This document shows positions 26,488 to 37,451 of a DNA stretch of 62,845 nt, in pieces; positions within the stretch are counted from its first letter, which is position 1; every line of letters starts with the position of its first letter. Below the pieces are notes generated by a model. It did not search any database, had not been told where the DNA came from, and saw only the letters and a program-made list of their open reading frames with translations. The translations under genes were made by a program, and so were the position numbers. The stretch covers positions 73,060 through 135,904 of the forward strand of contig CALZTY010000002.1 of assembly GCA_945829225.1 (NCBI GenBank). Direction: 5' to 3'. This DNA is from an uncultured Bacteroidales bacterium. GTDB lineage: Bacteria > Bacteroidota > Bacteroidia > Bacteroidales > Muribaculaceae.

Positions 26488-26721
26488 CTACGCTTCAGGC
26501 AAGGAAATAAGGTATTCAGGTGCAAAGTCTGCACCATTTTCCCATTCTACAGTATTATATTTAATTACAAATCGTTTAAAGAAGTCAATATCTTTGAGTG
26601 GCTCAAAAACTACGCCTTTAAGCGATGATTTCAAGTCCACCACCTTTGTGATATTGTTGTTAAACCACAATTTAATGCGGTAATTATCAACATATTCCGC
26701 CTTTACAACCTCAATAAACAT
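26488..26721 (-). CDS. DUF2442 domain protein
   Basis: The 77-residue product matches DUF2442: a start with VVKAEYVDNYRIKLWF, the centre VVDLKSSLKG ... FEPLKD, and the ending YNTVEWENGADFAPEYL. The function is not established; the family often sits beside DUF4160, as here (6-nt gap). Such pairs behave like toxin-antitoxin or small regulatory modules, which is my inference. The gene is AT-rich compared with the ABC operon it abuts and is probably acquired. Confidence 0.85.
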   Translation of the reverse strand: MFIEVVKAEYVDNYRIKLWFNNNITKVVDLKSSLKGVVFEPLKDIDFFKRFVIKYNTVEWENGADFAPEYLISLPEA

Positions 26722-26727
26722 ATCCTT

Positions 26728-26985
26728 CTAATTTAGTGGTTCTATCTTATCCAAGGGTAATCCTTTTTGAGCTTTTTCCCAATTGGACAATAGTTCTAAA
26801 CGATGCAATTCAAGCCATTCAAGAATCATTTTCAGTGCTCGACCGGGCATCTCACCTCTAACAACACCATCTTTAATGCTGATTATTACTTTATAATCAC
26901 CATACCAAGCATGAAAATGTGCCGGAGCATGGTCAGCAAAGTTCATTAATATGATTATTCCATAAAATAAACTAATCTGAGGCAT
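26728..26985 (-). CDS. DUF4160 domain protein
   Basis: The 85-residue product is a typical DUF4160: MPQISLFYGIIILMNF, then HAPAHFHAWYGDYKVII and a closing RALKMILEWLELHRLELL. The longer frame to 27309 crosses the aminotransferase gene, so the ATG at 26985 is used, with a perfect promoter upstream (27017-27047). It is co-transcribed with the DUF2442 gene 6 nt downstream. The conserved HFHA suggests a metal- or nucleotide-handling role, but no activity is known to me. Confidence 0.87.
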   Translation of the reverse strand: MPQISLFYGIIILMNFADHAPAHFHAWYGDYKVIISIKDGVVRGEMPGRALKMILEWLELHRLELLSNWEKAQKGLPLDKIEPLN

Positions 26986-27016
26986 AAATAGTTCTTTGAG
27001 GTTTTTTGAATTATGG

Positions 27017-27047
27017 CAAAGGTACAACAAATTTTTATAATTACAAA
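27017..27047 (-). promoter_or_regulatory. promoter of the DUF4160-DUF2442 pair
   Basis: On the minus strand TTTG (27044-27047), a 19-base spacer and TACCTTTG (27017-27024) match the consensus exactly. Confidence 0.7.
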
Positions 27048-27049
27048 AA

Positions 27050-28312
27050 CTATTGGAGGGAGGAGCGGATGGTGGCGACGATGTAGCGGACGTCGTCGTC
27101 GGAGACGTATGGACCGGCGGGTAGGCACAAGCCACGGCGGAAGAGCCCCTCGGCGGTGCCGTTGACATAAGCCGGCGCATCGGCATACAAGGGTTGCAGG
27201 TGCATGGGCTTCCACAGCGGACGACTCTCGATACCGGCGGCTTGCAGCGCGAGTCGCAGAGCCTCGACATCGACGTTCGGCTCCACGGCTGTGTGAGGCG
27301 AGATGGCACGATGTGTCACTCCGGCGGCTCCGCCGACAGCACCGCTAATCACCTCGGCATATGCCTTGTCGCGCCCTGCCACACGCACCGAGTCGTCGAG
27401 GGTGACGGTGCAGAGCCAGAAGTTGGCGTCGTATCGCGGCGAGGGGTTTTCGTGGAGCGTGATGCCCGGAATATCGGCGAGTAACTCGCGATAGAGGGCT
27501 TGCACATGGCGGTGATGGGCGAGGTGGTCGGCGAGGATGCGCATCTGTCCGCGTCCGATGGCGGCGCAGACATTGGACAAGCGGAAGTTGTAGCCGAGTT
27601 CCTCGTGCTGATAGTAGGGATAGGACTCTCGCGCCTGTGTGGCGAAGAACATCAGTCGGCGACGAGCCTCGTCGTCGGGGCATATAATGGCACCGCCACC
27701 GCTGGTGGTGATCATCTTGTTGCCGTTGAACGACAGCACGCCATAGCGCCCGAAGGTGCCACATTCCTGTCCGTCGAAGCGGCTACCCATGCCCTCGGCG
27801 GCGTCCTCGACCACGGGGATGCCGTATCGGTCGGCAATGGCGAGGATTTGGTCGATGCGGCAGGGCATGCCATAGAGGTGGACGGCGACGATGGCTCGCG
27901 GGGCATGCCCGGTGACGGCGATGCGGTCGCGGATAGCCTCCTCGAGCAAGGCGGGGTCCATGTTCCACGACTCGGGCTCCGAGTCGACAAGCACAGGCGT
28001 AGCGCCGAGATAGCGTATGGGGTTGACCGACGCGCAGAAGGTGAACGACTGGGCGATGACCTCGTCGCCGGCGCGGACGCCACAGCCCATCAAGCCCAAT
28101 TGGACAGCCGAGGTGCCGTTGCACAGAGCCACAACGCGCTTGTCGAGCGCCGGGGCATCTCCGCGGTCATTGACAAATGCCTCGAGGTCGCGCTCGAAGG
28201 CATCGACATCGGGTCCCATGGGGACTATCCAATTGTCCTCAAAGGCTTTGAGCACATATTTCAATTCGTCGCCACCGAGATGGTTGAGACACAGGAGTAT
28301 TCTACGAGCCAT
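27050..28312 (-). CDS. DegT/DnrJ/EryC1/StrS family sugar aminotransferase
   Basis: The 420-residue product is a PLP-dependent nucleotide-sugar aminotransferase. The blocks LCNGTSAVQLGL (phosphate and cofactor contacts), VVEDAAEGMGSRFDG and the internal-aldimine lysine in SFNGNKMITTSGGG are all present. The closest pattern is PglE-like enzymes that aminate 4-keto sugars. The start at 28312 (MARRILLCLNHLGG) is chosen because the frame beyond it overlaps the glycosyltransferase gene in a different frame. It lies 5 nt after that gene, so the two probably act together in making a surface glycan. Confidence 0.9.
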   Translation of the reverse strand: MARRILLCLNHLGGDELKYVLKAFEDNWIVPMGPDVDAFERDLEAFVNDRGDAPALDKRVVALCNGTSAVQLGLMGCGVRAGDEVIAQSFTFCASVNPIRYLGATPVLVDSEPESWNMDPALLEEAIRDRIAVTGHAPRAIVAVHLYGMPCRIDQILAIADRYGIPVVEDAAEGMGSRFDGQECGTFGRYGVLSFNGNKMITTSGGGAIICPDDEARRRLMFFATQARESYPYYQHEELGYNFRLSNVCAAIGRGQMRILADHLAHHRHVQALYRELLADIPGITLHENPSPRYDANFWLCTVTLDDSVRVAGRDKAYAEVISGAVGGAAGVTHRAISPHTAVEPNVDVEALRLALQAAGIESRPLWKPMHLQPLYADAPAYVNGTAEGLFRRGLCLPAGPYVSDDDVRYIVATIRSSLQ

Positions 28313-28317
28313 AATTA

Positions 28318-29232
28318 TCAGATTTTCAATGCAGTAATAAATCGATAGATGCGGGCGACGCCACGTCCGCCCATACGAGAGTAATTGTAAAACAAGCGCC
28401 AGAGCCATCGGCGTGGCAGGGGAGTGGCGGCGATGATGTCGGCGGCACGCCTTGATGCGGCGGGGTCGCCGGCGCCCTCGCAGGCAAGGATTATGAGCCG
28501 GCGCAGGTCGACCCAATGTCGCTGATTGTCGGGCAAGCGGCTCTCGATGGCATCGACGGCGACATCCATGTGAGAGATGTCGGCATGTGAGGCGGCGCTG
28601 ATAGAGTCCTCGCTGACGAAGACGTCGACCGTGATGTCGCTGCCGGCATGGACCACGGTGGGCTTGAGAGCCAGGAGTCGCATCCCCAACTCGACGTCGT
28701 CGAAGAGACGAGCCCCCGGGAGCCATGCGCCGGCACGGCGAAACAAGTCGGTGCGAGCCATATAGCGCTGGGTGGCAAATGACGAGTGCATCAAGTTGTT
28801 GTAGACTATATCCCTGACAATGAAGCGCTTGAGCGCGGTCGATGAGCCATAGTGATAGAGGACGTTCCAGCCGATGATATCGGCATCGGGGTGTTGCCGA
28901 GCCGTGTCCATGGCGCGAGCGACATGTCCGGGACGCATAGTGTCGTCGCTGTCAAAGAACATGGTCCAGGGCGAGTTGACCGCCTGCAAGCCTCGGTTGC
29001 GAGCCACGCAAGCCCCGGGTTGAGGCTCGGATAACAACTCCAGCGAGAGATTGTCATCGCAGTGTTGCGATGCCCAATGCTGTACAGTAGCGGCGGAGCC
29101 GTCGGTGGAGCCGTTGTCCACCACAATCACTTGCAGGGGGCGATAGACCTGGGCAGCGATGCTGTCGAGAGTGCGGCACACGCTGTCGGCGCGGTTGCGC
29201 ACCGGGATTACTATGCTTATCTTGCTTTCCAC
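28318..29232 (-). CDS. glycosyltransferase family 2
   Basis: The 304-residue product starts with ISIVIPVRNRADSVCRTLDS and has VDNGSTDGS and FFDSDDTM, the nucleotide- and metal-binding motifs of GT2 enzymes, in an A-type fold. No membrane helices are visible, so it acts at the cytoplasmic face. It begins with GTG, and the -7 box TAACTTTG (29237-29244) ends exactly 4 nt before it, implying a leaderless mRNA shared with the downstream aminotransferase gene. Donor and acceptor are unknown. Confidence 0.9.
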   Translation of the reverse strand: MESKISIVIPVRNRADSVCRTLDSIAAQVYRPLQVIVVDNGSTDGSAATVQHWASQHCDDNLSLELLSEPQPGACVARNRGLQAVNSPWTMFFDSDDTMRPGHVARAMDTARQHPDADIIGWNVLYHYGSSTALKRFIVRDIVYNNLMHSSFATQRYMARTDLFRRAGAWLPGARLFDDVELGMRLLALKPTVVHAGSDITVDVFVSEDSISAASHADISHMDVAVDAIESRLPDNQRHWVDLRRLIILACEGAGDPAASRRAADIIAATPLPRRWLWRLFYNYSRMGGRGVARIYRFITALKI

Positions 29233-29529: not shown

Positions 29530-30033
29530 ATGACAAGCGAAAAATTCCAAGCCTCGCTGATGCAATTGCAAGACAACATGCTCAACTTCGCTTACATGTT
29601 GACCTCCAATCGCGATGACGCTTACGACCTGCTACAGGACACCACGCTCAAGGTCCTGGACAATGAAGAGAAATTTGCCGAGAACACCAACTTCAAGGGT
29701 TGGGTGTTCACCATTATGCGCAATATCTTCATTAACAACTATCGTCGAGGAGTGATGGCAGCCACGATGATCGACACCACCCAGAACCTTTATCACCTCA
29801 ATCTGCCCCAGACATCAGGCTTCGACGCGCCCGAAGACTCGCTCCATGCCGAGGAAATCACATCGGCGATCGATGCCTTGCCCGAGGACTATCGACTGCC
29901 CTTCTCGATGCACATTGCCGGCTACAAGTACAGCGAGATTGCCGATGAGACCGGCTTGCCGCTGGGCACCATCAAGAGCCGCATCCACTTTGCGCGCCAT
30001 CGCCTCCGCGAGCAATTCAAGGATTACCGGTGA
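29530..30033 (+). CDS. ECF-type RNA polymerase sigma factor
   Basis: The 167-residue product has sigma region 2 (NRDDAYDLLQDTTLKVL, then FKGWVFTIMRNIFINNYRR) and region 4 (YSEIADETGLPLGTIKSRI), separated by a short linker, as in ECF sigma factors. No anti-sigma gene follows. The longer frame from 29440 covers the promoter, so the ATG at 29530 is used. The last 103 coding bases are repeated, with eight changes, at 33057-33162 beyond a restriction-modification island. The gene here is therefore intact, but its 3' end may have been supplied by the incoming segment. Confidence 0.92.
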   Translation: MTSEKFQASLMQLQDNMLNFAYMLTSNRDDAYDLLQDTTLKVLDNEEKFAENTNFKGWVFTIMRNIFINNYRRGVMAATMIDTTQNLYHLNLPQTSGFDAPEDSLHAEEITSAIDALPEDYRLPFSMHIAGYKYSEIADETGLPLGTIKSRIHFARHRLREQFKDYR

Positions 30034-30036
30034 TGG
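29931..30036 (+). repeat. 106-bp direct repeat, copy 1 (sigma factor 3' end)
   Basis: This segment covers the region 4 helix-turn-helix, the stop codon and three further bases. Copy 2 at 33057-33162 has the same length with no gaps and eight mismatches by my reading; all but one (Asp to Glu) are silent. It marks the left border of the island. Confidence 0.88.
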
Positions 30037-30060
30037 AGGGGTGAGGGGTTAGGGTTTATA

Positions 30061-30073
30061 GTTTATTGTTTAG
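30061..30073 (-). repeat. dispersed 13-mer, copy C
   Basis: GTTTATTGTTTAG is the inverted exact copy of the 13-mer at 12026 and 20883. It lies at the left end of the island, 28 nt after the sigma stop. Confidence 0.5.
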
Positions 30074-30168
30074 TGTCGCCTCAAAGACGGCTCTTGTTTA
30101 GTTGTTTGCCAATTTCCGTACTTTTTGGTGAACTATTTTAGAACAGTTACGGATTAATCGCATAAAAA

Positions 30169-30200
30169 TTTGGATGGCAATGAGAAAAGAACTAACTTTG
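30169..30200 (+). promoter_or_regulatory. promoter of the restriction-modification operon
   Basis: TTTG (30169-30172), a 20-base spacer and TAACTTTG (30193-30200) match the consensus exactly. The predicted start near 30205 leaves a leader of about 190 nt. Confidence 0.65.
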
Positions 30201-30206
30201 CGGTGG

Positions 30207-30324
30207 ACCAAAAACAAAACCCTTGACTTGTCAAGGTCGGAGCAAAGAGGAGGGCTGGCCTCCAACGCTTCTCCCTTTGTTCTGAAAAATTATTTAAAGT
30301 TTAACCCCCTGTCGAAAAACGGGG
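30207..30324 (+). ncRNA. structured leader or small RNA upstream of the restriction gene
   Basis: The 30034-30395 spacer is mostly a predicted transcript with three hairpins: CCTTGAC/GTCAAGG (30221-30236), GGAGG/CCTCC inside CAAAG/CTTTG (30243-30279), and CCCC/GGGG (30306-30324). No riboswitch class is recognised. It could delay or tune restriction gene expression, as no controller protein gene is present. Confidence 0.4.
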
Positions 30325-30395
30325 AGTAGTATATCAATGAAACAATGAGTTAATGTAGATTCTCATTTAGACATAATTTATTGCTTATTTGCCTT

Positions 30396-31199
30396 ATGGA
30401 AGTACTATATAAGAATGATCAACGATATTTAGACATCTTCCTTACACCCCTTAAGGAATGTCAAAACTACCGTCCGAAATTTGGACATTCCACTACAGAA
30501 GGATATGACTTGGAGCAATTTCTTAAATTGTATCAAAGCGATCCTTTTTATAAATGGATCGGTCTGGATTCCCCATACATGTTTGCTGCACACAAAGCAG
30601 CTGGAGGTATGACATCAATATACCGTCAAATAGGTATTGGTTGTGAGCGCCTTTTAAGAGCTGTACTTGTAGATTCATTGGGGTATCAAAATAATGATCA
30701 AGCTTTTTGGTCTTATAAAACCAAAACTAAAGCTGGAAAAGATAAAACACTCTATTTAGATGGTTTTATAAATCTAACAAAAATCTCATACCCCGCAGTT
30801 CGAGCAAATGTCGAAAATTGGATGAAAGAGTTCTCCAAACAGCACAACATAAGAAGAAGACAGTTTGAAGGAATTGTTTTCGAAATTCGTCAAGGATACA
30901 AAAGCAAAGACAGTAAACGGCAAAATGCTGATATAGATAATGCGACTGTAGCGTATGCCAACAATCTCATTCCTGTTTTTGCAATATTCTCATCTCAAAT
31001 TGATGATGACATTGTGTTACGTTACACGAATAACAAATGTGGTATTCTAATCGGAAACTTATCCGAAAACCCTTATGTTTCTCTTTACGCCTTCTGCAAG
31101 GAAATATTAAATTATGATTTAGCCTTGTTCTTTGAAAGAAACACGGAGTCTATTAGACAATCAATTCAAAGTATTTTAAAGGAGCTATTATCTGTTTAA
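30396..31199 (+). CDS. putative Type II restriction endonuclease
   Basis: The 267-residue product abuts the methyltransferase gene with no gap, the normal arrangement for a Type II pair. The best active-site candidate is FEGIVFEIRQGYKSKDSKRQ near residues 155-175: acidic and lysine residues in a PD-(D/E)xK-like order, with KDSKRQNAD resembling the recognition/catalytic block of enzymes that cut CCGG-containing sites. That last point is a recollection, not a demonstrated match. The ATG at 30396 is preferred over a TTG at 30381. The gene is strongly AT-rich relative to the host and lies inside the repeat-flanked island, so it was acquired. The recognition sequence is unknown. Confidence 0.65.
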   Translation: MEVLYKNDQRYLDIFLTPLKECQNYRPKFGHSTTEGYDLEQFLKLYQSDPFYKWIGLDSPYMFAAHKAAGGMTSIYRQIGIGCERLLRAVLVDSLGYQNNDQAFWSYKTKTKAGKDKTLYLDGFINLTKISYPAVRANVENWMKEFSKQHNIRRRQFEGIVFEIRQGYKSKDSKRQNADIDNATVAYANNLIPVFAIFSSQIDDDIVLRYTNNKCGILIGNLSENPYVSLYAFCKEILNYDLALFFERNTESIRQSIQSILKELLSV

Positions 31200-32438
31200 A
31201 TGAAAAAGAACAAAGACTATACATTTAAATACAATCAAAATCTTGGCCGAAATGGTTGGTTAAGATTAACGCCTGCATACTCGGTAAAATTAGTTGAAGA
31301 AATTCTCGGAGATGATAATTTGTTCTCGGAGAAGAAAATATCTTCAGGAACCGTATTTGACCCATTTTGTGGCACAGCAACGACTGGTATAGTTGCTGCA
31401 GAGCGCGGATTAGATTCTATGTTATATGAAATTAATCCTTTTCTTTATTGGTTTTCAACAGCTAAAGGCCAGAACTATAATTCTGCAGATATTGATAATC
31501 AACTTAAGCATCTAAACAAGACTTTATATAGTGCACATTACAGCCAATATTGTAAATCTTGGACTCCTCCAATGAAAAATATAGAACGTTGGTGGAATTC
31601 TGTTACAGTAGAACAGCTTGGTAAACTCCATGAGTTCCTTATTGAAGAAATAGGACGCCCAACAATTCAGCCAAATGTTTCGAATCTCGCATGGATTGCC
31701 TTTGCTAGACTTGTAATTGAAAGTTCAGCTGCTGATTTTGGTCATATATCAGTGTCATTTAAGGACACTTGCAACTCATACGAAGAGGCTGAATTATTAT
31801 CACTCTTCGTTAAGTCTCTTGAGTATATTTCAGAATCCGCCAAGCGTCCCTTAAAAGGCAATGTTAAAATAATTTCAGGGGATTCGAGAGATGTGTGTCT
31901 TGATGATAAAGTTAATTACGTGATTACGTCTCCTCCATATCCCAATAGAATAAGCTATATCCGAGAACTTCGTCCATATATGTATTGGCTTGGCTTCCTG
32001 AATTCTGGAGAAGAGGCGGGTGAATTGGATTGGGCTGCAATTGGTGGTACCTGGGGAAGTGCCACAAGTAAATTGTCATCATGGGAATGCGATACCAACT
32101 GGTTTATGCCAACTTGCTTAACAGAAGCCGTAAACAAGATTAAAGAGTCTGACTCTAAGAATGGAAAAACTCTTGCAAAGTACGTACTTAAATTCTTTTA
32201 TGACATATATTTGCATTTTAAGAATTTAACGAAAAATCTCAAGGATGGCTGCGAACTATATTATATTTTAGGAAATTCATCTTTTTATGGAAACATGGTT
32301 CACACGGACTTGATTGTTTGTGAAATCATGGAATCTATCGGATATGAAAACCCTGTTGCAAAAATTATAAGGAAACGAAATTCAAAAAAAGAACTTTTTG
32401 AATTCCAAATTGAAGCTACATGGCACATCAAAAAATAG
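31200..32438 (+). CDS. DNA methyltransferase of the restriction-modification pair
   Basis: The 412-residue product has the AdoMet-binding motif FDPFCGTATTGIV near residue 52 and the catalytic motif TSPPYPNR near residue 242; SPPY is typical of amino-methyltransferases, often N4-cytosine. Motif I comes before motif IV with a long stretch between, which may hold the target-recognition part. It protects host DNA from the endonuclease encoded directly upstream; the two frames abut (TAA then ATG). The AT-rich composition matches its partner. No second methyltransferase or controller gene is visible. Confidence 0.88.
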   Translation: MKKNKDYTFKYNQNLGRNGWLRLTPAYSVKLVEEILGDDNLFSEKKISSGTVFDPFCGTATTGIVAAERGLDSMLYEINPFLYWFSTAKGQNYNSADIDNQLKHLNKTLYSAHYSQYCKSWTPPMKNIERWWNSVTVEQLGKLHEFLIEEIGRPTIQPNVSNLAWIAFARLVIESSAADFGHISVSFKDTCNSYEEAELLSLFVKSLEYISESAKRPLKGNVKIISGDSRDVCLDDKVNYVITSPPYPNRISYIRELRPYMYWLGFLNSGEEAGELDWAAIGGTWGSATSKLSSWECDTNWFMPTCLTEAVNKIKESDSKNGKTLAKYVLKFFYDIYLHFKNLTKNLKDGCELYYILGNSSFYGNMVHTDLIVCEIMESIGYENPVAKIIRKRNSKKELFEFQIEATWHIKK

Positions 32439-32535
32439 ATGCTATATCGCATTTTAGGCGTATAGGTCAAATTGCAGGCTGAAAAGCTTGCAACGCTGTG
32501 AATAGCAAAGAGATACTGCACTTCAAAAGCTTTGA

Positions 32536-32718
32536 GACCCAAATTTTCGTGTCGATAGCCCTCTATGGGTCATTTTGCAGGCTGAATTTCATGCTCTGGC
32601 ACAGCAAATTGGATATTCAAGTGGAGAATATACAATAATGGGCGAGCAAATATATGCACTTTCGACAGGGCTATATAGTACAGTACTTAAATGGCAGAAC
32701 CGCCAAGATTATGATTAG
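32536..32718 (+). pseudogene. gene fragment without a start, unknown family
   Basis: The 311-nt gap after the methyltransferase (32439-32749) holds an open stretch of about 60 codons bounded by two stops, with no start near its beginning. The translated part EFHALAQQIGYSSGEYTIMG ... GLYSTVLKWQNRQDYD looks like a real C-terminal end. I do not recognise the parent family. It is probably debris of a gene lost within the island. Confidence 0.4.
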
Positions 32719-32749
32719 ATAAGGCAATAATTAAGAGGTATATAACAAC

Positions 32750-33056
32750 TTAATCAGAAATTAGTTTTAAGTCAAAGAATAGTACTCGGCTTTTTAATGC
32801 TTCAGATTCGGAGATGCCAAAAGCAGCTTTTTCGCTTAATTCGGTTTTATAAAGAGGTTTAAAGCCATTCTTGATGTAGTAGTGGATTGTAGATTCGGTG
32901 TTGTAAGCATCAACAAGCATATAACGGCAAGCAGCCTTATTGTTTTCATCTACGAACCAATATTTAAGGGCATTCATTAGTTGTGTACCTACGTTAAGGC
33001 CAACTCCCTGAAAAGATTTATTTACGCCGAGCCGACCGATTAAAACAGCGGGATAG
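32750..33056 (-). pseudogene. GNAT acetyltransferase, 5' half missing
   Basis: The minus-strand frame encodes the C-terminal part of a GNAT enzyme: PAVLIGRLGVNKSFQGVGL (the acetyl-CoA-binding strand and loop), then CRYMLVDAYN and YYIKNGFKPL, the closing strands. An ATG at 32977 would give only 75 residues, but homology continues upstream in frame until about 33055 and stops at the junction with the duplicated sigma-factor segment (33057). The first half of the gene, and any DUF1778-type antitoxin that might have gone with a TacT-like toxin, are missing. The break coincides exactly with the island border. Confidence 0.75.
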
Positions 33057-33159
33057 CAGCGAGATTGCCGAGGAGACCGGCTTGCCCTTGGGGACCATCA
33101 AGAGCCGCATCCACTTTGCGCGGCACCGCCTGCGCGAGCAATTCAAGGATTACCGCTGA
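33057..33159 (+). pseudogene. duplicated 3' end of the ECF sigma factor gene
   Basis: The reading frame SEIAEETGLPLGTIKSRI through FKDYR and a stop repeats the last 33 residues of the sigma factor at 29530-30033. There is no start and no region 2. Differences from the intact copy are almost all silent, so this end evolved as coding sequence before it was cut off. Confidence 0.85.
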
Positions 33160-33162
33160 TGG
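33057..33162 (+). repeat. 106-bp direct repeat, copy 2 (right border of the island)
   Basis: Partner of 29931-30036. The sequence similarity may continue loosely to GGTTTATAG at 33172-33180, as also seen after copy 1. Beyond it lies AGCTAATGTAGCT (33179-33191), the inverse of a word at 16608-16620. Confidence 0.85.
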
Positions 33163-33255
33163 CGGGTTGATGGTTTATAGCTAATGTAGCTAAGATAGCT
33201 GATATAGCCGGGTAGAGGTAGTGATCCCCGGTAGGTGGGAAGTGATGGGGAGAGG

Positions 33256-33294
33256 AAAAAGAGAGGGCGATGCGTCTCGCGACGGGTCGCCCTC
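33256..33294 (-). terminator. terminator of the galK-galE-galM-nucleotidyltransferase operon
   Basis: The stem GAGGGCGA/TCGCCCTC (33263-33270, 33287-33294) is followed on the minus strand by a T-rich run. It lies about 28 nt after the stop of the nucleotidyltransferase gene. Confidence 0.75.
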
Positions 33295-33321
33295 GATGGA
33301 GTTATAAAAGGGGGGTAAAAA

Positions 33322-34227
33322 TCAGATGAAGAGGTGCTCGGGGTAAGTGCCGTCGGCGTGGAGGGAGGCGAATTTGGCGACGACTCCGGGGCGGTCGGCG
33401 GCGTAAGTGACGCCGAACCATCGGGAGGTGGTGTCGAGCACTTTGACGGTGGCTTCGCCGGAGCGAATGAGCGGGTCGATGCACAGGGGGACGTAGAATT
33501 CAGCCTTAGGCGCGTTGATATTAGCGTCGAGGAATTTGCGGAATTCGCGGTCGCTGAGGTCGAAGTAGTCGGGGGTGAAGCCCCACATGTTCATAGATAC
33601 GGGAGTGTTGGGCTCGAGGATTTGCTCGGTGCCGTTTTCGTCGGTGAATGAGATATCGCCGGAGGCATTGTATGCGATGGCTGTGCGCTCGACCACGGAA
33701 GTGAGGAGTCCGTCGCGAGTGACGCAAACGCCGCGAGCCACGGAGCCGTTCTCGGTCATGGTGTTACCGACGCGGAAGCCGACCATGCAGTAGTCGCCGG
33801 GGCGAGAGTGCGGTCGAGCGAGTTCGCGAGCGATGACTTCGAAGGCGTCGCGGCCGTAAAAGTCGTCGGCGTTGATGACGGCGAAAGGCTCGTTGATTGC
33901 TTCGCGCCCCATGAGGATGGCGTGGTTGGTGCCCCAGGGCTTTGAGCGGTCGGCGGGGCAGGTGTAGCCGTCGGGGAGGCGGTCGGTGGATTGGAAGACG
34001 ACCTCGACGGGCACGTGACCTTGGTATTTGCTCAATATCTTGGAGCGGAAGTCAGCCTCGAAGTCTTTGCGGATGACAAAGACCACCTTGCCGAATCCGG
34101 CTTGGAGGGCGTCGTATATCGAATAGTCCATAATTGTCTCGCCGTGAGGGCCTAAACCGTCGAGTTGCTTGAGTCCGCCATAGCGACTGCCCATGCCGGC
34201 AGCGAGGACAAAGAGAGTTGGTTTCAT
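33322..34227 (-). CDS. sugar-1-phosphate nucleotidyltransferase family protein
   Basis: The 301-residue product has the nucleotidyltransferase signature LAAGMGSRYGGLKQL at its N-terminus, WGTNHAILMGREA, and the metal-binding NADDFYGRDAF. These enzymes join a sugar-1-phosphate to a nucleotide. It follows galM by 3 nt in a galK-galE-galM operon that has no galT. Making UDP-galactose from UTP and galactose-1-phosphate is therefore its most likely job; this is inferred from context only. The galE product would then convert it to UDP-glucose. A terminator closes the operon just after the gene. Confidence 0.8.
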   Translation of the reverse strand: MKPTLFVLAAGMGSRYGGLKQLDGLGPHGETIMDYSIYDALQAGFGKVVFVIRKDFEADFRSKILSKYQGHVPVEVVFQSTDRLPDGYTCPADRSKPWGTNHAILMGREAINEPFAVINADDFYGRDAFEVIARELARPHSRPGDYCMVGFRVGNTMTENGSVARGVCVTRDGLLTSVVERTAIAYNASGDISFTDENGTEQILEPNTPVSMNMWGFTPDYFDLSDREFRKFLDANINAPKAEFYVPLCIDPLIRSGEATVKVLDTTSRWFGVTYAADRPGVVAKFASLHADGTYPEHLFI

Positions 34228-34230
34228 TGG

Positions 34231-35274
34231 TTACTTGGTAGAGAGTTTGAAAATAATGTGACGGCAGTAAGAGTCGCCGGGTCGGAGGACAGTCGAGGGG
34301 AAGTCGGGACGGTTGGGTGCGTCGGGGAAGTCCTGGCACTCGATGGCGATGGCGTCGTAGTCGTGGTAGGTGCAGCCGCCCTTTCCGGCAGGGGAGCCGG
34401 TGAGCCAGTTGCCGCCATAGACCTGAACGCCGGGCTGGTCGCTATGCACCTCGAGGACACGTCCCGAAGGCTCGTCGACCAGGGTGGCGATGTGCTTGAT
34501 CTGCCCGGGAGCGTAGTTGTCGATAGCCCAGCAGTTGTCGTAACCCTTGCCGTAGTTGAGTGCGGGGAAGTCGGCGCGCATATCCAGCCCGAAGGGCTTG
34601 GGTGCGGTGAAATCCATCGGAGTGCCGGCGACTGGAGCGAGGGAGCCGTCGGGGATGAGTGTATCGTCGGTGGGGAGGTAACGGGATGCAGCGAGCCACA
34701 GCAGGTGGTTGAGCGCCGAGCCGGCATTGTGTCCGGCGAGGTTCCAGTAGGCGTGGTTGGTGAGGTTAAGCACCGTGGGAGCGTCGGTGGAGGCGGTGAG
34801 GGTGAGGCTTAGGGCGTTGTCCTCGCTCCAGCGATAGGTAGCCTCGATGGCGAGGTTGCCGGGGTAGCCGGCATCACCGTCGGGCGAAGCGAGGGCGAAA
34901 GAAGCGCTGAGGTCGTCGGTGCTCACCAACGTCCAGTTGCGGTTTTGGAAGCCGTCTGGACCGCCATGGAGGCTGTTGGGGCCGTTGTTGATGGGCAGGG
35001 AGAAATCCTTGCCATCGAGGGAGAAGCGCCCGCGAGCGATGCGGTTGGCATATCTGCCGGGGACCTTTCCGGCGGCGGGACCGTCGCCGATGTAGTCGGT
35101 GGGGTCGTCGTAGCCCAGGAGGACGTCGGCGAGGTTGCCGTGGCGGTCGGGGACGAGCACCGACACGATGCCGGCGCCGAGGGTAGACAAGGTTACCGAG
35201 GCACCCGAGGCATTGACAAGGGTCACCAGGGTGATGTATCCGGCGGCAGAGGGTATGGTCTTAGAGGTAATCAT
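34231..35274 (-). CDS. galM: aldose 1-epimerase
   Basis: The 347-residue product is a galactose mutarotase. It has VPGRYANRIARGRF (sugar-binding Asn/Arg), LTNHAYWNL (catalytic His) and ECQDFPDAPN (catalytic Glu). It converts beta-galactose, released by the GH2 enzyme, to the alpha form used by galactokinase. The start at 35274 overlaps the galE stop by 3-4 bases; the longer frame to 35307 lies inside galE. No signal peptide is present, so the enzyme is cytoplasmic. Confidence 0.93.
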   Translation of the reverse strand: MITSKTIPSAAGYITLVTLVNASGASVTLSTLGAGIVSVLVPDRHGNLADVLLGYDDPTDYIGDGPAAGKVPGRYANRIARGRFSLDGKDFSLPINNGPNSLHGGPDGFQNRNWTLVSTDDLSASFALASPDGDAGYPGNLAIEATYRWSEDNALSLTLTASTDAPTVLNLTNHAYWNLAGHNAGSALNHLLWLAASRYLPTDDTLIPDGSLAPVAGTPMDFTAPKPFGLDMRADFPALNYGKGYDNCWAIDNYAPGQIKHIATLVDEPSGRVLEVHSDQPGVQVYGGNWLTGSPAGKGGCTYHDYDAIAIECQDFPDAPNRPDFPSTVLRPGDSYCRHIIFKLSTK

Positions 35275-36302
35275 TTGATGTTGCGGATATGTTTCTCCCA
35301 AGCCCAAGCGGCGCGGAGGGTGTCATCGAGGGAGCGCTCGGCTTTCCAGCCGAGGACCTCGTTGGCGCGGGTAGTGTCAGCCCAAACGGCGGGCACATCG
35401 CCGGCACGGCGCGCGGTGTATTGGTAGGGGAGTTTGAGGTCGTTAACTTTCTCGAAAGTGGTGATTAGTTCGAGCACCGACACCGGTCGACCGGTGCCGA
35501 TGTTGAAAATCTCGTATGAAGACTCCATGCGAGCGCCGACCATGCGGTTGACCGCGGCGACGTGAGCCTTGGCGAGGTCGACGACGTCGATATAGTCGCG
35601 GAGGCAAGTGCCGTCGGGGGTGTCATAGTCGTTGCCGAAGATGCTGAGCATGGGGCGGATGCCGGCGGCAGTCTGAGTGATGAAGGGCACCAGGTTGTTG
35701 GGCACTCCGCGGGGCAACTCACCGATGAGCGCGGAGGGATGGGCGCCGATGGGGTTGAAGTATCGCAGAGCGATGCCGTTGAGCCCGGAGTAGGCGCCGC
35801 AGCAGTCGCGGAGGATATCCTCGGCGATTTGCTTGGTGTTGCCGTAGGGCGAAGTTGCCGGCTGTCGCGGGGTTTGCTCGGTGACGGGGAGCACCTCAGC
35901 CTCGCCGTAGACGGTAGCCGAAGACGAGAACAGCACATTCGGGCGCCCGGTCTCCTTCATCAGTTCAACGATGTTCATGAACGACACCAGGTTGTTCTGA
36001 TAATACTTGAGGGGCTCGGCAACCGACTCGCCTACAGCCTTGAAAGCGGCGAAGTGAATGACCGAGTCGAAGGCATAGCGGTCGAAGACGGCGCGGAGAG
36101 CAGCGCGGTCGCAGGTGTCAACGACCTCGAAGGGGATGTCGCGCCCGACGATGTCGCGGACGCCGTCGACGGCATTGCGGTCGGAGTTGGAGAGGTTGTC
36201 GATGATAACAACGTCGTATCCGGCGTTGATGAGTTCAACGGCGGTGTGAGAGCCGATATATCCGGCACCGCCCGAGATAAGTACTGTCTTGTTGGAGTTC
36301 AT
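35271..36302 (-). CDS. galE: UDP-glucose 4-epimerase
   Basis: The 343-residue product is a full-length GalE, with NAD-binding GGAGYIGSH near residue 11, the Ser in SSSATVYGE and the YGNTK catalytic pair. RDYIDVVDLAKAH and the C-terminal WGWK-like region (LGWKAERSLDD) are as expected. It interconverts UDP-galactose and UDP-glucose. It lies 12 nt after galK and overlaps galM, so it is in the same operon as the rest of the Leloir steps. Confidence 0.96.
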   Translation of the reverse strand: MNSNKTVLISGGAGYIGSHTAVELINAGYDVVIIDNLSNSDRNAVDGVRDIVGRDIPFEVVDTCDRAALRAVFDRYAFDSVIHFAAFKAVGESVAEPLKYYQNNLVSFMNIVELMKETGRPNVLFSSSATVYGEAEVLPVTEQTPRQPATSPYGNTKQIAEDILRDCCGAYSGLNGIALRYFNPIGAHPSALIGELPRGVPNNLVPFITQTAAGIRPMLSIFGNDYDTPDGTCLRDYIDVVDLAKAHVAAVNRMVGARMESSYEIFNIGTGRPVSVLELITTFEKVNDLKLPYQYTARRAGDVPAVWADTTRANEVLGWKAERSLDDTLRAAWAWEKHIRNIK

Positions 36303-36314
36303 ATGTGGTGAAAG

Positions 36315-37451
<1,137 letters not shown>

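Follow-up and report, generated by a model that had tools for sequence, protein, structure and literature searches.

A predicted Type II restriction-modification pair between diverged repeats of a sigma factor 3′ end: a possible case of one-sided homologous integration in a Muribaculaceae genome

Introduction

Where an island or prophage restores the 3′ end of the gene into which it inserts, as e14 does in icd, a full gene is left on one side and a displaced gene end on the other, with silent differences between the two. In homology-facilitated illegitimate recombination (HFIR), as set out in PMC3240628, incoming DNA pairs with resident DNA at one end, its other end is joined illegitimately, and the resident DNA between is lost; according to the same paper, linear DNA may alternatively be ligated and then enter via a single crossover, which at the locus described below would result in the same layout. 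An HFIR-like mechanism is the one proposed in PMC5361080 for displaced 3′ gene ends in type VI secretion system (T6SS) clusters of Vibrio. Furthermore, some restriction-modification (R-M) systems are described as giving target duplications ‘in the order of 100 bp’ on insertion (PMC3874152; PMC3031569, PMC1643837). Here, we analyze a window of 62,845 nt, i.e. the whole stretch of DNA under study, from an uncultured Bacteroidales bacterium of the Muribaculaceae (assembly GCA_945829225.1, contig CALZTY010000002.1, positions 73,060 to 135,904), in which the 3′ end of an extracytoplasmic function (ECF) sigma factor gene is repeated downstream in direct orientation (Table 1). Between the repeat arms lie ~3 kb of AT-rich DNA with a predicted Type II R-M pair, a solitary end of an IS256-variant insertion sequence (IS) and a GNAT acetyltransferase gene reduced to its C-terminal half. 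We estimate at about one in two the probability that DNA of a close relative recombined homologously on the sigma side and was joined illegitimately on the GNAT side, the resident sigma 3′ end remaining as a stump. Such an event looks like ordinary recombination of a known kind and not like the work of a new mobile element.

Two diverged sigma factor ends

The left repeat arm is the 3′ end of the intact sigma gene (copy A), and the right arm is a stump lacking a start (copy B). The arms are 121 nt long and identical at 109 positions (90%), which is not a chance similarity (E = 2.7e-41 in the 2.27-Mb genome); their longest identical run is 29 nt. The 106 nt delimited in the preliminary description contain eight mismatches in eight codons, seven of them silent and one changing Asp to Glu, and the adjoining 15 nt contain four more. 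Farther than 18 nt past the stop codon, similarity between the copies is indistinguishable from low complexity, its score being reached by 6 of 1000 shuffles and 23 of 5940 window controls. In the genome itself, a draft of 85 contigs, a DNA search with the sigma region returned just the two arms at E <= 0.001, and the sigma gene has five matches at the protein level. Sigma DNA in the other genomes searched is only 67–81% identical (76% for the top-scoring match), implying that the source of copy B was closer: a strain, a sister species or a paralogue. The nearest public records are labeled mostly Muribaculaceae, Porphyromonadaceae or Bacteroidales. The best NCBIfam match of copy A is the NF058625 GFO_1088 family (sigma_PG0214), with 98 bits, below the cut-off of 130.

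The probability that at least seven of eight changes are silent is 0.0004–0.0005 if the changes are random and unconstrained, and 0.010 if copy A was under selection and copy B dead from the start. Copy B therefore probably belonged to a working gene during most of the divergence time.

Similarity of the GNAT piece to 16 longer genes (open frames of 154–239 aa) stops no more than ~5 nt from the repeat edge, at ~33057, in the middle of the GNAT gene and where similarity to sigma begins, likewise mid-gene, at the third base of codon 134; the right junction is therefore a non-homologous join inside two genes. At 33057–33058, C-T is found in all 16 GNAT genes, mostly followed by G-C-G or a near variant, and the sigma sequence reads C-A-G-C-G. 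One base is thus certainly shared at the join, and five of six match if one mismatch is allowed. The closest relatives of the GNAT piece (L212 and L213) are 89% identical and longer, the gene in L213 being intact with 201 aa.

These data bear out the layout given in the preliminary description: the duplicated end with eight mismatches and seven silent changes, the AT-rich R-M pair between the arms (G+C 0.365; PADLOC matches in Table 1) and the GNAT gene cut at the repeat. Its argument that silent divergence marks two once-functional coding ends also holds. What it had called gene debris can in part be specified as the solitary IS256-variant end.

Origin of the island

In the favored reading, a donor fragment would have carried the R-M pair, the IS end and part of a GNAT gene behind a sigma gene or, at the least, behind a sigma 3′ end. 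It would have paired with the resident sigma gene, with a crossover at or upstream of the 3′ end, and its other end, in mid-GNAT, would have been joined illegitimately to the resident sigma gene at codon 134. This would have produced a complete sigma gene, followed by the cargo and, as a stump, by the 3′ end of the resident gene, so that the 3′ end of copy A is predicted to come from the donor and copy B to be resident. In an equivalent variant, end joining (GNAT to sigma 3′ end) would first have turned the fragment into a circle, which a single crossover would then have integrated. We infer the donor, the order of events and the route of DNA entry, and it is the repeat that suggests homology on the sigma side.

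One-sided integration is favored, first, because seven of the eight coding differences are silent, i.e. both ends diverged mostly in working genes and, second, because the GNAT/sigma junction is non-homologous and lies mid-gene on both sides. Moreover, the cargo is a ragged slice (R-M pair, solitary IS end, a further piece and half a GNAT gene) and not a bounded element, the methyltransferase gene is found in only one of 49 genus genomes, the window’s own, and, contig edges apart, displaced sigma ends were not found elsewhere. Precedents for such a reaction are HFIR, ligation followed by a single crossover (PMC3240628) and the displaced gene ends of Vibrio T6SS clusters (PMC5361080). A local DNA-importing event is preferred since it explains position, direction and ragged content together.

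Several observations weigh against this reconstruction. Gene conversion between sigma copies could likewise leave the changes silent. Among the loci compared, no other sigma gene adjoins a close match of the GT2, R-M pair, GNAT or nucleotidyltransferase genes, which makes the donor arrangement hypothetical, and neither a donor nor an empty site was found. Furthermore, PMC3240628 gives HFIR joins of mostly 3–10 bp, compared with one certain base (five of six with a mismatch) here, and states that, where rates were measured, HFIR is less frequent than homologous recombination by a factor of 100 to a million.

Genomes of the same species were not found in the genomes and public records searched, and genus searches with the nucleotidyltransferase and GT2 genes revealed no empty site. 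The GT2 gene matched best in G014, G046 and G051, three draft assemblies in which the GT2 match and the nucleotidyltransferase gene lie on separate contigs. In L128 and L146, a weak GT2-like match is found at a distance of ~3.6 and 7.5 kb from sigma, respectively, and in L137 a weak aminotransferase-like match at ~3.3 kb. One locus, L114, has a galM-like gene behind sigma that is 45% identical to the window’s and was not accepted as the same site.

Insertion of an R-M system with a long target duplication, in which ~120 bp of the sigma 3′ end were copied and the copies later drifted, is unlikely. The R-M pair, the direct repeats of fitting size and the lack of a visible integrase all agree with it. 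However, the 10% divergence and the excess of silent coding changes speak against duplication followed by drift (P of about 0.01 with one copy dead), and the inserted DNA exceeds an R-M unit. Such a duplication may in part be the same process as one-sided integration, seen sooner after the event.

Sigma gene copies in Muribaculaceae

A further explanation, in our view improbable, is that a second, paralogous sigma gene was reduced to copy B by a deletion that fused mid-GNAT to mid-sigma. Many Muribaculaceae indeed have several copies of the ECF sigma gene, near-identical ones occurring at different loci (L075–L154, L271–L290), and a pair at least 93% identical in the gene is present in half of the genomes with two or more copies that were compared (7 of 14). 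The homology common to near-identical pairs consists of a leader of ~150–285 nt and the gene, and it often stops at or near the stop codon: between positions -2 and +7 relative to the stop in L081/L082, L091/L092, L123/L145, L119/L134, L276/L277 and three copies of G580, and 17–127 nt past it in L278/L279, L290, L112/L118 and L097/L099. Silent changes between paralogues could be maintained by gene conversion. In addition, L120 has a different sigma gene, 36% identical, 463 nt behind the first, so such neighbors exist. Against this, the 14 genomes yielded only two close pairs on one contig, L084/L085 (~10 kb apart and inverted) and L112/L118 (37 kb apart), and the window’s genome has no sigma DNA match at E <= 0.001 beyond the two arms. 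A paralogue next door is thus possible, though unusual.

L112 and L118, from one genome, are 98.4% identical to each other, whereas copies in matching contexts in other species (L107 and L142) are 77–78% identical to them, implying that the pair has been homogenized or that one copy was recently replaced by the other. Contexts of the sigma gene differ widely when neighbors are clustered in search of a fixed site, although some recur in a few loci. Among 80 public sigma loci, a contig ends within 500 nt upstream in 10 and within 500 nt downstream in 10, a count that omits L084 and L085, two loci that no contig end truncates; we attribute the frequent contig ends to the effect that repeats have on assemblies. 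In searches of open-licence papers, no report of such multi-copy, homogenized sigma genes was found. It is conceivable, but rather speculative, that the Muribaculaceae copies form a recombination network, in which copies are homogenized, the conserved gene body acts as a homologous landing site next to which R-M pairs and other cargo become trapped without an integrase, and the window is a step caught in progress.

Two further arrangements of sigma copies were seen. The three copies of G580 (L291–L293) share several further kb upstream, presumably an rRNA operon, and the shared unit ends 0–7 nt past the sigma stop; rRNA-like DNA near sigma was detected only at three copies of one genome among 100 loci compared, with DNA of that genome as the probe. 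In L290 (G061), at the same place as L084/L085, two sigma copies that are 98.5% identical over 809 nt face each other ~10 kb apart, an inverted repeat with the potential to flip the intervening DNA.

Integrative element or assembly error

The preliminary description had offered two interpretations, an element that targets sigma 3′ ends or an exchange with a diverged strain, and had taken the lack of an integrase to imply a new integration route, mobilisation in trans or decay. The exchange fits best. For a self-targeting element no support was obtained, and a decayed one, with the sigma 3′ end as attachment site and the gene restored by the element’s own copy, is doubtful. A full gene on one side, a displaced end on the other and silent differences would suit it, but its edge is a broken gene. 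Indeed, consistent with the preliminary description, no integrase or recombinase gene was seen among the island open reading frames (ORFs) of at least 60 aa, the genes examined being the R-M pair and the GNAT piece, to which a transposase-less IS end is added. A survey of sigma genes returned 122 matches, three of them the window’s own and the rest partly redundant, and in flanks of up to 10 kb a second sigma end downstream in direct orientation occurs in the window only. The remaining self-matches comprise a partner copy in inverted orientation (L084/L085), short repeats past the stop codon in L092 and L094, the different sigma gene of L120 and, in L130, an internal match that is inverted.

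When the 121-nt sigma end was compared with the 49 genus genomes, 24 matched at E <= 0.01; the sensitivity of this search is low, a longer query at a strict cut-off finding the gene in 44 of the 49. Twelve matches that did not coincide with known sigma genes, as the remainder did, were inspected: a full gene accounts for one, sigma 3′ ends cut by a contig edge account for five, and six are matches of 21–39 nt without a sigma protein match. Thus, no displaced sigma end was found in these genomes, five 3′ ends at contig edges aside (G042, G004, G062 and two in G003). No carrier of the sigma end was found in viral contigs, phages or plasmids as searched, either. With neither an integrase nor recurrence, a new integration route is not implied. 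Finally, an assembly error fusing two strains is very unlikely even for a draft of 85 contigs, since no run of identity between the copies exceeds 29 nt and the GNAT/sigma junction does not consist of shared sequence.

Cargo and boundaries of the island

Table 1. Features of the island and its flanking sigma gene (positions in the window; functions predicted from the matches given)
Feature	Position	Strand	Basis
Intact ECF sigma gene, copy A, 167 aa	29530..30033	+	Pfam Sigma70_r2 3.5e-11, Sigma70_r4_2 1.3e-13
Copy A 3′ end, left arm of direct repeat	29931..30051	+	
Low-complexity intergenic DNA, resident type	30034..30076	+	Own-genome search
AT-rich leader of R-M pair	30077..30395	.	No Rfam match at E <= 1
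Type II restriction endonuclease, 267 aa	30396..31199	+	PADLOC PDLC03512 (REase_II) 1.1e-70, full length
DNA methyltransferase, 412 aa	31200..32438	+	PADLOC MTase_II 1.5e-27; PHROG 18146 2e-39
Solitary IS end, two same-direction motifs (TATRGGTCANWTTGCAGG) 103 nt apart	32452..32586	+	Likeness to L327 left end
C-terminal half of GNAT acetyltransferase gene, 101 of ~200 aa	32750..33056	-	Pfam Acetyltransf_7 3.9e-5, below cut-off
Copy B, sigma 3′ end, stump without start, right arm of direct repeat	33057..33177	+	

Adjacent endonuclease and methyltransferase genes of Type II families, the stop of the former directly abutting the start of the latter, point to a Type II R-M system, for which cleavage and methylation are predicted from the family matches. 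Neither protein matched an NCBIfam model, and the methyltransferase has only matches under the cut-off in Pfam. No methyltransferase relative was detected at E <= 1e-15 in the other 48 genus genomes; in 394 other genomes of the phylum there are two clear relatives (49 and 43% identity) and three weak ones (25–29%). The endonuclease adjoins a homologous methyltransferase in L176 and L177, with endonuclease identities of 57 and 50%, respectively. The stretches read around the two clear R-M homologues contain no sigma gene among their ORFs. As for repeats around homologous R-M pairs, which in both L297 and L298 lie near contig ends, none was found in L297 and one 31-nt pair (77%), not flanking, in L298. 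Methyltransferase relatives occur in 34 of 72,556 plasmid records, all below 60% identity, the closest being a partial 48% match from Morganella. The protein search of plasmids gave no match for the endonuclease. Neither the R-M pair nor the sigma gene nor the repeat matched viral contigs, and no match was found by DNA in plasmids or in phages, the latter searched at the DNA level only.

The solitary IS end resembles that of L327, in which inverted TATRGGTCANWTTGCAGG motifs at both ends enclose a transposase gene and two left-end motifs are likewise 103 nt apart. The L327 transposase matches the NCBIfam ‘IS256 family, variant Zn-binding type’ (1.8e-114) and has no match in Pfam. Only one such end was found in the window, and the island contains no transposase, the best window match of the L327 transposase lying outside it (E = 0.007); the island therefore holds a solitary IS end. 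Several copies of the motif in relatives are within about 130 nt of contig ends. The end motif of the IS256-variant element was also observed in L327 (1–1400), L323 (4280–4455) and L324 (4588–4763), and G463 has two stretches of ~0.2 kb between inverted TATRGGTCANWTTGCAGG motifs that look like non-autonomous copies.

G+C content is 0.365 at 30077–33056, 0.53 in the sigma gene and 0.61 at 27000–29200 and 33250–37000. The left foreign boundary is probably near 30076, because intergenic stretches similar to the first 43 nt past the sigma stop occur at other places in this genome. This low-complexity stretch (GGTTTATAGTTTATTGTTTAGTG-like) is dispersed, occurring at several places on other contigs of the genome. 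The debris peptide has no family in Pfam (E <= 1) and a single match in PHROG (E = 0.043). The GNAT protein was also considered as the toxin of a toxin-antitoxin pair, an assignment that was dropped, no obvious partner gene being seen beside the L213 homologue. Upstream of sigma, at 26488–27050, lies an AT-rich pair of DUF2442 and DUF4160 genes (Pfam 5.9e-13 and 6.2e-19, respectively), likely another foreign insert.

Comparison with known systems

The layout suggests a route by which a defence cassette may enter a chromosome without a mobility gene. Silent differences separate true duplication from exchange between lineages, a distinction applicable to other R-M insertions classed as ‘long target duplication’. 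Sigma gene duplication and homogenization in Muribaculaceae bear, in addition, on regulation and on assembly breaks in this family.

Like the islands and prophages that restore a gene 3′ end, the locus combines a complete gene, a displaced end and silent differences; unlike them, it has no visible integrase, no recurrence was found and its edge is ragged. With the long target duplications of R-M systems, as described for Helicobacter and credited by citing papers to Nobusato 2000 and Furuta 2010, it has in common an R-M pair, no mobility gene seen and host-gene repeats of ~100 bp. However, the repeats of the window are 10% diverged with nearly all coding changes silent, and the cargo adds an IS end and half of a foreign gene. 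The likeness to HFIR (PMC3240628) lies in one presumably homologous side, one illegitimate join, foreign DNA trapped and resident DNA replaced, although the join in the window has little exact microhomology and the window is known as an end state only. Finally, in the displaced 3′ ends of T6SS/Rhs loci, according to PMC5361080, a module likewise enters at a conserved stretch and the old 3′ end is pushed downstream. The cargo in those loci is an effector-immunity pair, whereas in the window it is an R-M pair behind a sigma gene.

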